A DNA stretch of 64,000 nucleotides from Candidatus Hodarchaeaceae archaeon. Lineage in GTDB: Archaea > Hadarchaeota > Hadarchaeia > Hadarchaeales > Hadarchaeaceae. The position numbers and the translations under genes were made by a program. The stretch is taken from NCBI GenBank assembly GCA_030018135.1, contig JASEGJ010000002.1:1-64000 (forward strand), read 5' to 3'. Positions within the stretch are counted from its first letter, which is position 1. Each line of letters starts with the position of its first letter. Below, piece after piece: positions 33,951-42,084 of this stretch. The notes below the pieces were generated by a model. The model was not told the origin of the DNA and did not search any database. It saw only the letters and a program-made list of their open reading frames with translations.

Positions 33951-36272
33951 GTGGTGCACGTCAGCAAAATAGAGATGCGGGGTTTCAAGTCCTTTGGAAA
34001 CACAAAAGTGAGCCTTCCCCTCTCTTCGTGTTTAACGGCGATCGTTGGGCCGAACGGTTCCGGAAAGAGCAACATAATCGAGGCTTTTTGTTTCGTCCTG
34101 GGGTGGATGAGCGCCAAGACCATGCGCGCCGAGAGGTTTTCCGATTTGTTGTTCAACGGCGGCAACGGTCAACGGCCGGCGCCATTCGCGGAGGTTTCGC
34201 TTCACTTCGACAACAGCGATGGAGTTTTGCCCGTTGACTCGAAAACCGTTGTGATAGCGCGGCGCGTGGATCGCAGCGGCAAATGCGTGTATAGACTTAA
34301 TAAAAAGCGCGCGTCGCGACAGGAGATAGTCGACCTGCTCTCGAAAGTCATGTCGAGCCCGGGCGGTTACAATTTCATAATGCAGGGAGATGTCGACCGA
34401 TTTATAAAGATGAATCCCCTCGAGCGCAGATCGATCATCGACGACCTCGCGGGAATCGCGGAATACGACGAGAAGAAAGAAAAGTCGCTTGCGGAGCTTC
34501 AACGAGTCGAGACAAATCTTCAGAGCATGGGTGCCATCCTCAACGAGATCGGCATGCAAATGGAAAAGTTGCGCATAGAGAAGGAGGGGGCCATGCGCTA
34601 CAGGCAACTTAAAAATCAGCTCGAGCAGGGGCGCGCAATGCTGCTGCTCGCTCAACAAAACATCTGCGGGCGGAAGCTGTCCGAAATTCAGCGCAAGATA
34701 AGTGCTAAAAACGGTGAACTCTCAGAGCTCCGCGATGAATCGCAAAAAATTGCAGACGCAATAAATCAACACGAAAGAAAAATCAAGCAACTTGATAAAC
34801 TCATCCATGAAAAGCAAAGCGCGGACATCCTCGCCGCGGCCGAGAATTTGCGCGAGCGCATCCGCACCCTGACCGAGATGATAGCGTCCACAAACGACGA
34901 GCAAACCGCGGTTAAAACAAGAATCGCAAACGTCCAAGCTGAGATCAAAAAAGTTAGCGGGGAGGCTCAAAGGGTGGCCGGCGAGGGACCCGAGCGATTG
35001 CTGAGAGAAATAGAAAAAATCTCAACGAAATTTACGGAGCTCCGCGATGAGTTCGATGGCCTGCTCCAAACATTGGATAGGGCCGACCGCAGGTCTTTTA
35101 CGGATGTGCGCAAGGTGCTTGGCCGAGCACAAAAGGTGCTTCACGACATGCGCCCCATAATCAACGATTTCGATGGATGCATCAAGCGGACAACGGAGTT
35201 ATGGAATAAGTTTCCACAGGTCCCCACAGGTGATTTACGCAAACCAGAATCTGAACTCCAGGGGCTGCAGGCAGATCTGATATCCCTAGAGGGACAGCAC
35301 GTTCAGCTCGATAAAAGGTTCGAGGAACTGCAGCGAAAAGTGCAGGAGGCCAGAGTTGCCCTCGAGACCGCTTCTAAGCGAGGGGATGAGGTACAAAAAT
35401 CCATCCGGGCAATGTGTGGGGAAAAGGAGAGCTCGCAGCGCAAGATATCGTCCTTGAGGGGAAGGGCCACGCGCATTCAGGAAGAAATTCAGGCCCTCGA
35501 GGGCAAGCTGCAGGAGTACCGCATTGAGGAAGCTCGCCTGCAGACCCAACTTGATGCGACTGAAAGGGAGTCAAAGCGCATTAAGGTAAGAGTGAAGGAA
35601 GTCAAACATGTCGATCCATCCAAGTTGGAGCGGGAAATAGAAAAGGTGGAGGCCGAACTTGAGACGATTGGGCCAGTTAACGAGCGAGCGATAAGGGACT
35701 TCAGAAACACAGAACGCCGTTACAGCGCCCAGAAGGCACAGTACGACAAGCTGGTGGGCGAAAGGCAGTCCATCCTCGATTTCATGCGGGAAATAGATCA
35801 AAAGAAGACCGAGGTCTTCATGAAGACGTTCAATGAAATATCCAAGAATTTTGGCAAAATCTTCAGCGAGCTCTCCCCGGGCGGCTCGGCGAGGCTGATC
35901 CTAGAGAACCCCGAGCACCCGCTCGATGGGGGGCTGGAGATAGAGGCAAAGCCCGCCGGCAAGGAGGTCGTACATGTCGGCGCCATGTCGGGCGGCGAGC
36001 GGGCCCTGACGGCGCTTGCGTTCATCTTCTCGATCCAGCGGGCGAGGCCGACCGCGCTCTACGTGCTCGACGAGATAGACGCTCACCTAGACGACGAAAA
36101 CCTGCGACGTGTTGCGGAGATGCTGCACCGCTCCTCACGGGAAACACAAATAGTAGTCGTCACGCTGAGGGATTCGATGATGTCCGTTGCTGATCGCCTC
36201 TTCGGCGTAAGCATGGATAGCAGCGGGGTTTCGCGCATGGTGTCGGTCGAGCTGGCTGGCTTGGCTGCATGA
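33951..36272 (+). CDS. Shortened SMC-family ATPase without a recognisable hinge
   Basis: 773 residues, against about 1170 for a normal archaeal SMC. Head parts are complete: Walker A GPNGSGKS (33-40), the QGDVDRFIKM Q-loop region, the signature MSGGERALTALAF and Walker B ALYVLDEIDAHLD near the C-terminus. Between them are two coiled-coil arms, each roughly half the usual length, joined by about 85 residues (around 345-430) that lack the glycine-rich hinge pattern and lack a CxxC zinc hook. It is followed 10 bp later by scpA and then scpB, so it is the SMC of a condensin complex, not RecN or Rad50. GTG 33951 or GTG 33954 is the start (TAGGA upstream). Confidence 0.88.
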   Translation: MVHVSKIEMRGFKSFGNTKVSLPLSSCLTAIVGPNGSGKSNIIEAFCFVLGWMSAKTMRAERFSDLLFNGGNGQRPAPFAEVSLHFDNSDGVLPVDSKTVVIARRVDRSGKCVYRLNKKRASRQEIVDLLSKVMSSPGGYNFIMQGDVDRFIKMNPLERRSIIDDLAGIAEYDEKKEKSLAELQRVETNLQSMGAILNEIGMQMEKLRIEKEGAMRYRQLKNQLEQGRAMLLLAQQNICGRKLSEIQRKISAKNGELSELRDESQKIADAINQHERKIKQLDKLIHEKQSADILAAAENLRERIRTLTEMIASTNDEQTAVKTRIANVQAEIKKVSGEAQRVAGEGPERLLREIEKISTKFTELRDEFDGLLQTLDRADRRSFTDVRKVLGRAQKVLHDMRPIINDFDGCIKRTTELWNKFPQVPTGDLRKPESELQGLQADLISLEGQHVQLDKRFEELQRKVQEARVALETASKRGDEVQKSIRAMCGEKESSQRKISSLRGRATRIQEEIQALEGKLQEYRIEEARLQTQLDATERESKRIKVRVKEVKHVDPSKLEREIEKVEAELETIGPVNERAIRDFRNTERRYSAQKAQYDKLVGERQSILDFMREIDQKKTEVFMKTFNEISKNFGKIFSELSPGGSARLILENPEHPLDGGLEIEAKPAGKEVVHVGAMSGGERALTALAFIFSIQRARPTALYVLDEIDAHLDDENLRRVAEMLHRSSRETQIVVVTLRDSMMSVADRLFGVSMDSSGVSRMVSVELAGLAA

Positions 36273-36282
36273 GGTGTTCGCT

Positions 36283-36942
36283 ATGACCGTAGTGGTGGAC
36301 CAACCGTTTCAAATATTGCTTGAGCTCGTCCAATCGCACAAGCTTGACCCGTGGGATGTGGATATCGAGAGGCTTGCTGACATCTTCGCGCGGCGCATAA
36401 GGGAGATGCGGGAGCTCGACCTCCGCGTGTCGGGGCGGACGCTGCTGTCGGCGTCGGTGCTGTTGCGCATAAAGTCCGACTACGTGCTAAATGGCAACGG
36501 GCATGAGCAATCCAGCGAGGAGGAACTCGACGAGGTTTTTGACCTCAACCTGCCTGAGCTGGGCTCCATCATGATGATACAGCGGACACCTCGAAAGATC
36601 ACGCTTGTGGACCTAATGGACGCGCTCCGGGGCGCCCTGAAGGAGGCTCCGACGCATGCGCGGCCGTCCAGAGGGGCGATGGAAAAAGTCGTGCGGATGC
36701 TGAACGAATACCACATCAACATCGAGAAGTACCTCGAGAGGCTACATAAACGGGTAGCCGAGCTGGCAGCCGATGGCCGCAGGATCACGATGTCCGAGCT
36801 CATCACGGAGCGGACCAGGATAGCCGTGGCGCGAACTTTGCTCCTCCTCTTGTTCTTGGGCGTGCAGGGGAAGGTGGCGATATGGCAGGATGAGCCCCTC
36901 GGCGAGATATTCGTCTCCCTACTAAAGCCGCCGGGTGCTTAG
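36283..36942 (+). CDS. scpA: Condensin subunit ScpA (kleisin)
   Basis: 219 residues. N-terminal kleisin segment FQILLELVQSHKLDPWDVDIERLADIF, a central ASVLLRIKSDYVL helix, an acidic linker, and a C-terminal winged-helix part (SELITERTRIAVARTLLLLLFL ... GEIFVSL) that binds the SMC head cap. ATG 36283 was chosen because GAGGTG precedes it; a GTG at 36274 is in frame. It lies 10 bp after SMC and 1 bp before ScpB. Confidence 0.92.
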   Translation: MTVVVDQPFQILLELVQSHKLDPWDVDIERLADIFARRIREMRELDLRVSGRTLLSASVLLRIKSDYVLNGNGHEQSSEEELDEVFDLNLPELGSIMMIQRTPRKITLVDLMDALRGALKEAPTHARPSRGAMEKVVRMLNEYHINIEKYLERLHKRVAELAADGRRITMSELITERTRIAVARTLLLLLFLGVQGKVAIWQDEPLGEIFVSLLKPPGA

Positions 36943-36943
36943 C

Positions 36944-37453
36944 ATGGGCATCGAAGAGGATCGCTCGACCATAGAGGCGGCCCTCTACGCCGCCGACCGC
37001 CCTTTGACCCTGAGTGAGCTCTGCGGGGTGCTCGGCACCTCCTCCGAGACCTACGTACGCAAGCTCATCGATGCGCTCATGGCAAACTACAAGAAGCGCG
37101 GGGGACCCCTCATGCTATCGGAGACTGCTAAGGACACGTTCGCGCTCACCCTCAGCGAGGGTTACATGCCGAAGCTCGAGGGCATCATGCCCAAGACCAA
37201 GCTCTCCCGTAGCACCCTGAAGACGCTCGCGCTCGTAGCGTACAAGCAGCCGATCCAGCAGGCGAGGCTCGCGGAGTTTCGCGGGGGGAGGGTGTACGAG
37301 CACGTAAAGCAGCTCGCGGCCCTCGGCTTCGTCGAGTCGAGGCCGTTTGGCCGCACCCGGGTGCTCCGGACATCGAAAAGGTTCGCTGGCTACTTCGGCT
37401 TCGAGGACGATATGGACAAGATCCGCGAGCGGCTTGAGGAGTTAATGCGATAG
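36944..37453 (+). CDS. scpB: Condensin subunit ScpB
   Basis: 169 residues with two winged helices: IEAALYAADRPLTLSELCGVLG and LSRSTLKTLALVAYKQPIQQARLAEFRGG, the latter the family signature (YKQPIT-type). It dimerises and bridges ScpA in the SMC complex. ATG 36944 directly follows the ScpA stop. No gap or break is seen, so the accessory subunits are normal although the SMC itself is shortened. Confidence 0.93.
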   Translation: MGIEEDRSTIEAALYAADRPLTLSELCGVLGTSSETYVRKLIDALMANYKKRGGPLMLSETAKDTFALTLSEGYMPKLEGIMPKTKLSRSTLKTLALVAYKQPIQQARLAEFRGGRVYEHVKQLAALGFVESRPFGRTRVLRTSKRFAGYFGFEDDMDKIRERLEELMR

Positions 37454-39660: not shown

Positions 39661-39945
39661 TTGCGCAGGCTAGGTAAGGTCATGCATGTTACGAAGCGCG
39701 GGCTCGTGCTACGCGTCGAGGGGGTGCCGGAGCTCGGCAGGGCGGTATACGATGGGGAGCGCAGGCGCGTCGGCAGCGTGCTGGACGTATTTGGGCCCAT
39801 CGGTAGCCCGTATGCGATGGTAAGGCCGGCCCAGGGCATGAGCCATGAGGACCTGACCGCGCTGATGGATAGGGAGTTGTTCACCAGAGAGAGGGAGTCG
39901 CATGGAAAGGGTGGAAAAGCAAAAGAAATGCCCGGAATGCGGTAG
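39661..39945 (+). CDS. gar1: H/ACA ribonucleoprotein component Gar1
   Basis: 94 residues. The Gar1 barrel is recognisable: [16 protein letters not shown], a short [21 protein letters not shown] (the GxVxDxFGP signature) and YAMVRP. It helps substrate turnover by the Cbf5 pseudouridine synthase. TTG 39661 follows GGGGGG by 4 nt; an upstream TTG (39649) would overlap that site. Its 3' end overlaps tfb by 44 bp, an arrangement (gar1-tfb) common in archaea. Confidence 0.9.
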
Positions 39946-40822
39946 CGGAAAGCTCGTGCGTGATTACGAGCGGGCCGAACTGGTCTGCGCTACCTGCGGC
40001 TTCGTCATTTACGACAAGATCATGGACATGGGGCCGGAGTGGCGGGCCTTCGACCAGGAGCAGCGGGACAGGCGAGGGCGGGTAGGGGCCCCCATGACCT
40101 ACACCATCCACGATAAGGGCCTGTCGACCATGATCGACTGGCGGGACAGGGACAGCCACGGCAAGAACCTGACACCCAAGCGGAGGGCGCAAATTTACCG
40201 CCTTCGCAAGTGGCAGCGCAGGATCCGCGTTTCGGATGCCACCGAGCGCAACCTAGCCTTCGCGCTGTCCGAACTCGACCGAATGGCGTCGCACCTCGGG
40301 CTGCCCCGCAACGTGCGGGAGGCGGCGGCGGTGATTTACAGGCGGGCGGTTGAGGAGAGGCTGATCCGCGGGCGGTCCATCGAGGGCGTCGCGGCGGCGG
40401 CGCTGTACGCGGCCTGCAGGGAGTGCAAGGTCCCGCGCACGCTCGACGAGATCGCCGAGGTCTCCCGCGTTGGCAAGAAGGAGATCGGGCGCAGCTACCG
40501 CTTCATAGCCAGGGAGCTGCTGATCCACCTGCGCCCGACGAGCCCGATCGACTACGTCCCGCGCTTCGGGAGCGAGCTGGGCCTGTCAGGCGAGGTTCAG
40601 TCCAAGGCGGTGGAGCTGCTCAAGGAGGCCAGCAATAAGGGGCTGACCTCCGGGCGGGGGCCGACGGGAGTCGCTGCGGCTGCGATTTACATAGCCAGCG
40701 TGCTCCAGGGCGAGAGGCGGACGCAGCGGGATGTGGCCGATGTGGCACGGGTTACTGAGGTCACCGTGAGGAACCGATATAAAGAACTCTGCGAAAAGCT
40801 CGGATTAGACGTAGAGCTTTAA
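39902..40822 (+). CDS. tfb: Transcription initiation factor TFB
   Basis: 306 residues. The N-terminal zinc ribbon (CPECGSGK ... CATC), the B-finger/reader region (GPEWRAFD), and two cyclin repeats, the second ending in [20 protein letters not shown] (helix-turn-helix that reads BRE), are all present. No intein is present. TFB recruits RNA polymerase to TBP-bound promoters. It is translationally coupled to gar1 by a 44-bp overlap. A LAGLIDADG-protein gene follows about 95 bp downstream. Confidence 0.97.
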
Positions 40823-40883: not shown

Positions 40884-40917
40884 GCGATGATGAGAGGGCT
40901 CCACGGAGGTGGTGAGT

Positions 40918-42084
40918 TTGAAGGAAATCGTTGGAGATCAGGATGGAGTTATCCTCGATACATTGGAGATGGTGCCGAGCGAAATTTCAGGGCGAAAAGT
41001 CGTTGCCAAAAGTTTAAGCAACAAGGTGGCCTTATATCCTCCCGCATCAGGGAAGTGGGGCGGAGGCAGAGAATCTAAAAAAGTCATCCTCAACAGAATC
41101 GTGCTATTGGATAGGCTGTTTTTTGAGGGACTTGGGCTATGGCAAGGTGAAGGAAGCAAGGGCAAGGGTATCTATTTTTGTAACTCTAACTTGCAAATCA
41201 TGCGCCATTTCTTAACGTTCGTCGAAGAAAAGCTAGGGTTACCAAGAGCTGACTTTAAAGTTACAGTCTGCACACCTCGCTCTAGCGAGCAGGATGAAAT
41301 CAGAGAGAAATTGTCCGAAGTGCTCGGAGTTCCGATCAACAATTTCACAGCTGTGTGCGTCGATCCCAGAATCAATAAGGAAAACGTTCAGGTATACATT
41401 AACTCGATTGTACTAGTTGAACTGCTAAAGAATTTACATGAAAAGTTGAAGCCGTTGATCAGATCGAATACAGAGTTCGCGGCAGCTTACCTACGGGGCA
41501 TATTTGCTGGAGAAGGCTCCGTGTTATTGAAAAAGTCCGGGGTTTTATTCCACGTTGACTTCGCTACCAAAGATGAAAGCTCAGTTGAGTTCTATAAACA
41601 ATGCCTCGATCTTCTCGGAATTGCACATGGCAAATATATGGAACGGAGTCTAAAATTTCAAATCTATGGCCGGCGAAATTTCCAACGCTTCAAGGAGCTC
41701 GACATCCACACCCTGCACCCGGAGAAGCATGTAAAGTTTGAACAAGGATTCGCAAACTACAAACGCACAAATGTGTTGGATGGTGAGGAAGCCCGATCGC
41801 TCATCATACAGCAACTCGCCTCGGGTCCGAAAACCTACGACGAGCTTGCGGCAGCGTTGGGTAAGGCTAGGACGACGATTCAAGCCCACCACATCCCGAT
41901 CCTCGAACGCCGAGGCCTCTTGAAATGTGTCGGGAAGCGTGGTCAAGCTTCGCTCTGGGCCCTTACGGAAGGCAAAATAACTCCACCGCCAAATGTTAAT
42001 CGAGCCCCATGCGAGGAACCTACGCCCTGCTCGTGCACGTGCCCTACGACCTCGCCGTCAGCGTGGGCGAGCTCGGCACGCTGA
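40918..42084 (+). CDS. Free-standing LAGLIDADG homing-endonuclease-like protein with C-terminal winged helix
   Basis: About 388 residues. Two LAGLIDADG motifs are present: FFEGLGLWQGEGS (near residue 65) and AYLRGIFAGEGSVLL (near residue 195). In both the acidic metal-binding residue appears as Glu in the GEGS ending. A winged helix (SGPKTYDELAAALGKARTTIQAHHIPIL) follows at about residues 300-345. It is not inside an intein or intron: tfb upstream is intact. Such HTH fusions could be regulators instead of nucleases. TTG 40918 has GGAGG 8 nt upstream; GTG codons at 40909 and 40912 are too close to it. The 3' end overlaps the GIY-YIG gene by 76 bp. Confidence 0.82.
   Translation: MKEIVGDQDGVILDTLEMVPSEISGRKVVAKSLSNKVALYPPASGKWGGGRESKKVILNRIVLLDRLFFEGLGLWQGEGSKGKGIYFCNSNLQIMRHFLTFVEEKLGLPRADFKVTVCTPRSSEQDEIREKLSEVLGVPINNFTAVCVDPRINKENVQVYINSIVLVELLKNLHEKLKPLIRSNTEFAAAYLRGIFAGEGSVLLKKSGVLFHVDFATKDESSVEFYKQCLDLLGIAHGKYMERSLKFQIYGRRNFQRFKELDIHTLHPEKHVKFEQGFANYKRTNVLDGEEARSLIIQQLASGPKTYDELAAALGKARTTIQAHHIPILERRGLLKCVGKRGQASLWALTEGKITPPPNVNRAPCEEPTPCSCTCPTTSPSAWASSAR

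Follow-up and report, generated by a model that had tools for sequence, protein, structure and literature searches.

An smc-scpA-scpB operon encoding a shortened SMC

The stretch of DNA analysed here (the window, 64,000 nt) carries on its forward strand an intact open reading frame with a GTG start (33951-36272), which encodes an SMC protein of 773 residues and is followed immediately by genes for a kleisin (ScpA) and a kite protein (ScpB). The features of this locus, with the subdivisions of the SMC taken from sequence motifs and from the AlphaFold2 model described below, are:

33951..36272, + strand: hinge-less SMC, 773 residues (PF02463, E = 2.7e-69; PF06470 absent)
33951..34454, + strand: N-terminal ATPase half-head, residues 1-168 (Walker A GPNGSGKS at 33-40; Foldseek match to 5xei)
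34455..34961, + strand: N-terminal coiled-coil arm, residues 169-337 (AlphaFold2 helices 169-289 and 292-337)
34962..35243, + strand: apex segment in the place of the hinge, residues 338-431 (all-helical in the model; no hinge match)
34989..35078, + strand: predicted apex helix 1, residues 347-376 (conserved stripe I354, F361, F368, L371, L375)
35097..35207, + strand: predicted apex helix 2, residues 383-419 (broad hydrophobic face at 390/393/396/397/400/403/404/407/411)
35244..35669, + strand: C-terminal coiled-coil arm including the head-proximal joint, residues 432-573 (AlphaFold2 model, Foldseek)
35670..36269, + strand: C-terminal ATPase half-head, residues 574-773 (signature SGG at 680-682; Walker B at 703-710)
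36274..36942, + strand: scpA, kleisin (PF02616, E = 9.7e-15), starting 1 bp past the smc stop
36935..37453, + strand: scpB, kite protein (PF04079, E = 2.4e-32), overlapping scpA by 8 bp

The order smc-scpA-scpB was kept in all 22 full-length family members that we identified (see below) as well as in Candidatus Hadarchaeum yellowstonense. An earlier note on this sequence had called the two partner proteins normal, a description that holds at the level of protein family (PF02616 and PF04079); tested archaeal ScpA/ScpB pairs did not bind one another (Jeon et al. 2020, PMC7055376). Elsewhere in the window, just downstream of a TFB gene (39902-40822), a LAGLIDADG-type ORF with an HTH domain (40909-42084; PF14528, PF01022) looks like an intein or a homing endonuclease remnant.

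The heads fall among archaeal SMCs

The 773-residue protein matched the SMC_N family (PF02463, E = 2.7e-69) and contains every ATPase motif (Walker A GPNGSGKS at residues 33-40, signature SGG at 680-682, Walker B LYVLDEID at 703-710), bearing out the initial impression that the heads are complete. Among the 22 family members the ATP-binding and ATP-hydrolysis motifs vary little or not at all, and the heads evolve under strong purifying selection (dN/dS 0.03-0.13). The top NCBIfam model was SMC_prok_A (TIGR02169; E = 2e-188, 628.6 bits), with a score below the curated cut-off of 729.4 bits, probably because the protein is shortened and lacks about one third of the usual sequence. In sequence, the best match in the PDB was the Smc head with joint of Pyrococcus yayanosii (2.7e-154), and Foldseek matched the modelled head and joint to the same part of this protein (5xei; E = 5.8e-45). 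A phylogeny of the heads placed the Hadarchaeales SMCs as one clade within archaeal SMCs. By head phylogeny the protein is thus a prokaryotic SMC, and its archaeal placement sets it outside the actinobacterial clade of hinge-less SMCs discussed below, from which the tree took in no sequences.

A Rad50/SbcC- or RecN-like repair ATPase would share this head superfamily, and Rad50/SbcC, which combines a related head ATPase with a coiled coil, is hinge-free as the Hadarchaeales SMC is. Such an identity nevertheless deserves very little credence, since the Rad50 family model scored far behind TIGR02169 (E = 5e-30 against 2e-188), the heads lie within the archaeal SMC clade, and the best PDB match is an Smc head with its joint. 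Moreover, Rad50 has a zinc hook and Mre11 as its partner, whereas the Hadarchaeales protein has no CxxC motif and is encoded in an operon with scpA and scpB. The ASRP model (NF045487) reached 118 bits, under its curated cut-off of 300 bits.

The hinge is absent throughout Hadarchaeales

The hinge is regarded as the site at which SMCs dimerise, and possibly also as a DNA entry gate and a DNA-binding site. Pfam searches of the 773-residue protein returned neither a hinge (PF06470) nor a zinc hook, and a CxxC motif was present in 0 of the 22 family members. The protein is 370-415 residues shorter than full-length hinge-bearing archaeal SMCs (1140-1188 residues), and each strand of its arms runs for about 168 residues (169-337 in the AlphaFold2 model), as compared with 344 residues in the Smc of Bacillus subtilis (PMC5344682). 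These values agree well with the earlier note, which had put the shortfall at about 400 residues and the arms at about half length, and had accurately located the joining segment, devoid of hinge and zinc hook, at about residues 345-430 (model helices 347-376 and 383-419).

Fast-evolving domains can escape Pfam, and a divergent hinge, raised from the outset as one challenge to this picture, was looked for by profile, by hhalign and in the AlphaFold2 model. It was not found by any of them. Our own profile, derived from the hinge sequences of 59 normal SMCs, detected two left-out short archaeal SMCs at 1e-39 and yet gave E > 0.7 for every Hadarchaeales SMC; hhalign aligned the apex profile to the hinge with a probability of 0.1%; the modelled apex has no beta strand; and the apex segment measures 60-94 residues among Hadarchaeales, as compared with 116 hinge positions. 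It is thus highly improbable that an unrecognised hinge is present. A hinge supplied by a separate gene was ruled out, as PF06470 was found in none of the 27 Hadarchaeales genomes searched in six frames.

A homologue search in 40 other genomes recovered full-length homologues throughout Hadarchaeales. The comparison of length with relatives, which had been suggested as a check, gave a uniform result: in Hadarchaeales the full-length SMCs, 22 with the window's own, have 725-773 residues throughout. The single remaining genome of the phylum did contain PF06470, as did 11 other archaeal genomes that encode an SMC, even at an SMC length of 839-872 residues, and a control set of well-known genomes behaved as expected in this search. 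Candidatus Hadarchaeum yellowstonense encodes a hinge-less SMC of 753 residues in the same operon, 49% identical to that of the window, in a public genome that may coincide with one of the Hadarchaeales genomes already counted; from this match we infer that the window belongs to Hadarchaeales and its source organism is a relative of Candidatus Hadarchaeum.

The family members derive from draft genomes that were probably assembled from metagenomes, which would leave room for an assembly artefact (the second challenge raised beforehand), an internal deletion or a decaying gene. An explanation of this kind is scarcely credible, given that 22 full-length genes and the public genome share one architecture, that no hinge fragment occurs elsewhere in any of the 27 genomes, and that the heads are under strong purifying selection. 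Hinge loss is real and lineage-wide in Hadarchaeales and, judged by sequence comparison, took with it the distal half of the arms.

Two archaeal SMCs of 839-872 residues carry a full hinge on short arms, and may give a picture of an intermediate between the normal and the hinge-less form. An SMC on a contig labelled Gastranaerophilales, a bacterium, grouped within euryarchaeal SMCs, reflecting either horizontal transfer or a mis-binned contig.

A predicted helical cap in place of the hinge

AlphaFold2 modelling of the single SMC chain (alignment of only 21 rows; mean pLDDT 79) predicted an all-helical apex (pLDDT 69-87), with the arm helices (169-337 and 432-573) linked by two further helices (347-376 and 383-419); each arm is thus predicted to end in a loop-helix-turn-helix-loop cap. 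Across the 22 proteins, helix 1 presents a single hydrophobic stripe (354, 361, 368, 371, 375), and helix 2 is hydrophobic at a, d and e positions. Nine of 27 columns in helix 2 are strongly hydrophobic, as compared with an average of 5.1 for windows of the arms, of which 6 in 215 reach that count. This broad face is suggestive, and only suggestive, of packing on more than one helix, for example in a bundle formed from two hairpins; it could instead pack on its own arm.

In nearly all pairs the apex was the region with the highest dN/dS (0.26-0.86, against 0.03-0.13 in the heads; the pair L016/L018, which was out of register, was left out), and its conservation (2.05 bits) was no better than that of the arms (2.15-2.42 bits), unlike true hinges, which are conserved above their own arms. 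Such a pattern is more in keeping with a structural tip or a loosely packed bundle than with a precise interface. The segment had no match in Pfam or PHROGs. Its profile came closest to designed helical bundles and coiled coils (top value 1.2e-8; the designed protein 2L4HC2_23 at 1.3e-4), which we took as compositional and rejected as known structural relatives.

Hinge-less SMCs in Bacteria

The homologue search also brought up bacterial SMCs of 711-858 residues, from Pelagibacteraceae (SAR11), one SAR86 and Parcubacteria-type lineages. None of the nine bacterial SMCs scanned had a Pfam hinge, with our own hinge profile likewise negative, and PF06470 was found nowhere in the 17 genomes searched (16 of them bacterial). 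Across the SAR11 family the hinge was detected in 0 of 99 genomes, and an SMC was present in 58 of 60; the SAR11 SMCs had about 794-890 residues, with an apex of strongly variable length. In one Parcubacteria-type class, PF06470 scored above the cut-off in none of 93 genomes, taken whether or not they encode an SMC, and hinge-less SMCs of Parcubacteria type had 711-775 residues. ScpA was present in 13, and ScpB in 14, of 15 bacterial genomes checked. The SAR86 sequence, a hinge-less SMC of 728 residues, comes from a single-cell genome, probably incomplete, in which neither ScpA nor ScpB was found. A Spirochaetaceae SMC of 958 residues, with a larger central segment and no PF06470 in its genome, is a possible further case.

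An AlphaFold2 model of a Patescibacteria SMC (single chain, alignment of 7 rows; mean pLDDT 73) has the same arm-loop-helix-turn-helix-loop-arm arrangement as that of Hadarchaeales, with helices at 330-348 and 353-378. A comparison of the archaeal cap with its bacterial counterpart gave no significant homology (hhalign probability 6.7% over 21 columns).

The three bacterial hinge-less groups occupied separate places within Bacteria in the head tree, and the AU test rejected trees that hold every hinge-less SMC in a single clade (p = 2e-63), as well as trees that do so for the bacterial ones alone (p = 3e-6). Together, these positions and rejections point to at least three losses of the hinge, and probably four, with the SAR86 origin represented by one sequence only. 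A horizontal origin from hinge-less bacteria was rejected by the head tree and the AU test.

Discussion

The explanation that we favor, to which we would assign a probability of roughly one in two, is that, after the loss of the hinge and of the distal arm halves, the helical cap now dimerises two SMCs. The protein is the sole recognisable condensin-type SMC of this Hadarchaeales archaeon, and would be partnered by ScpA and probably by ScpB. The broad hydrophobic faces on helix 2 of two caps would pack together as a four-helix bundle, joining the SMCs at the apex, and the opposite end would be closed by ATP-driven head engagement and the ScpA bridge, giving a ring of about half the usual length. 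DNA would be loaded via a head or neck gate rather than a hinge gate, and the same replacement would have arisen independently in SAR11, in the Parcubacteria-type class and in SAR86. Dimerisation by means other than the hinge is made plausible by the conserved hydrophobic helical hairpin at the apex, and it is from this hairpin that we infer the cap to be the dimeriser.

A doubtful alternative, though one of appreciable weight, dispenses with the apical dimer: the two SMCs would be held as an open tweezer only by ATP-dependent engagement of their heads and by ScpA bridging, together with the ScpB dimer, the cap merely closing the coiled coil. The fast evolution of the apex, its conservation at or below that of the arms, and its variable length (60-94 residues in Hadarchaeales, strongly variable in SAR11) speak for such an arrangement. 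A plain cap, however, needs no extra hydrophobic face, yet helix 2 keeps one in 22 sequences, and similar two-helix caps occur in independent lineages.

The SMC might also pair with a second SMC-like protein of 630-700 residues, which most Hadarchaeales genomes encode. The copy in the window's genome (662 residues, at 1637-3622 of L130) is also hinge-less and without CxxC. A heterodimer of this kind is improbable: the second protein is encoded on a different contig from the smc operon and matches SMC, Rad50 and ASRP only weakly, and the prokaryotic norm is an SMC homodimer with one ScpA.

The Hadarchaeales SMC has in common with the Smc-ScpAB condensin of B. subtilis and Pyrococcus the heads, the head-proximal joint and the kleisin and kite partners; that condensin has a hinge and arms of commonly about 340 residues, whereas the Hadarchaeales form has a predicted helical cap and arms about half as long. 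The earlier note was right about the absence of the hinge, which extends to the whole lineage, but overstated the dependence on it in holding that condensin normally requires the hinge, since B. subtilis Smc works with a Rad50 zinc hook and a foreign dimerisation domain can thus stand in (PMC5344682). In that chimera, which supports growth, the hinge was likewise swapped for an unrelated structure, but the chimera is engineered and carries a CxxC zinc hook, whereas the Hadarchaeales form is natural and has no metal-binding motif. The same study (Burmann et al. 2017) described modes of arm length that include a minor one at 163 residues, near the 168 found here; its sampling began from hinges, and therefore hinge-less SMCs could not enter.

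The hinge-less type of SMC is not new, because SMCs with neither hinge nor zinc hook have already been published for a marine actinobacterial clade (Sussfeld et al. 2025, PMC12153180). Like those of Hadarchaeales, these combine SMC heads and a coiled coil with no hinge and no CxxC; they form an environmental clade, and the available text of that paper does not discuss ScpA/ScpB context, apex structure or a dimerisation element. The SMC studied here belongs to an archaeal order that has kept the smc-scpA-scpB operon intact, and Actinobacteria are not among the further lineages found. The literature covered, which excluded most subscription papers and all of bioRxiv, yielded no account of a hinge-less SMC from Hadarchaeales, SAR11 or Patescibacteria.

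The natural occurrence of hinge-free SMCs in Hadarchaeales and, separately, in several bacterial lineages with small genomes, SAR11 among them, means that the hinge is dispensable in nature. Tentatively, and at slightly worse than even odds, independent streamlined lineages (Hadarchaeales, SAR11, the Parcubacteria-type class and SAR86) may have convergently exchanged the hinge for a minimal two-helix dimerisation cap, making a hinge-less, short-armed Smc-ScpAB a general alternative condensin in which gating and DNA binding by the hinge are unneeded. The repeated loss of the hinge, with the heads and (where found) ScpA and ScpB kept, separates the needs of the motor from what the hinge adds, and structural and single-molecule studies gain SMCs that are small and short by nature. 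Should it hold throughout SAR11, chromosome organisation in some of the ocean's most abundant bacteria takes place without a hinge.
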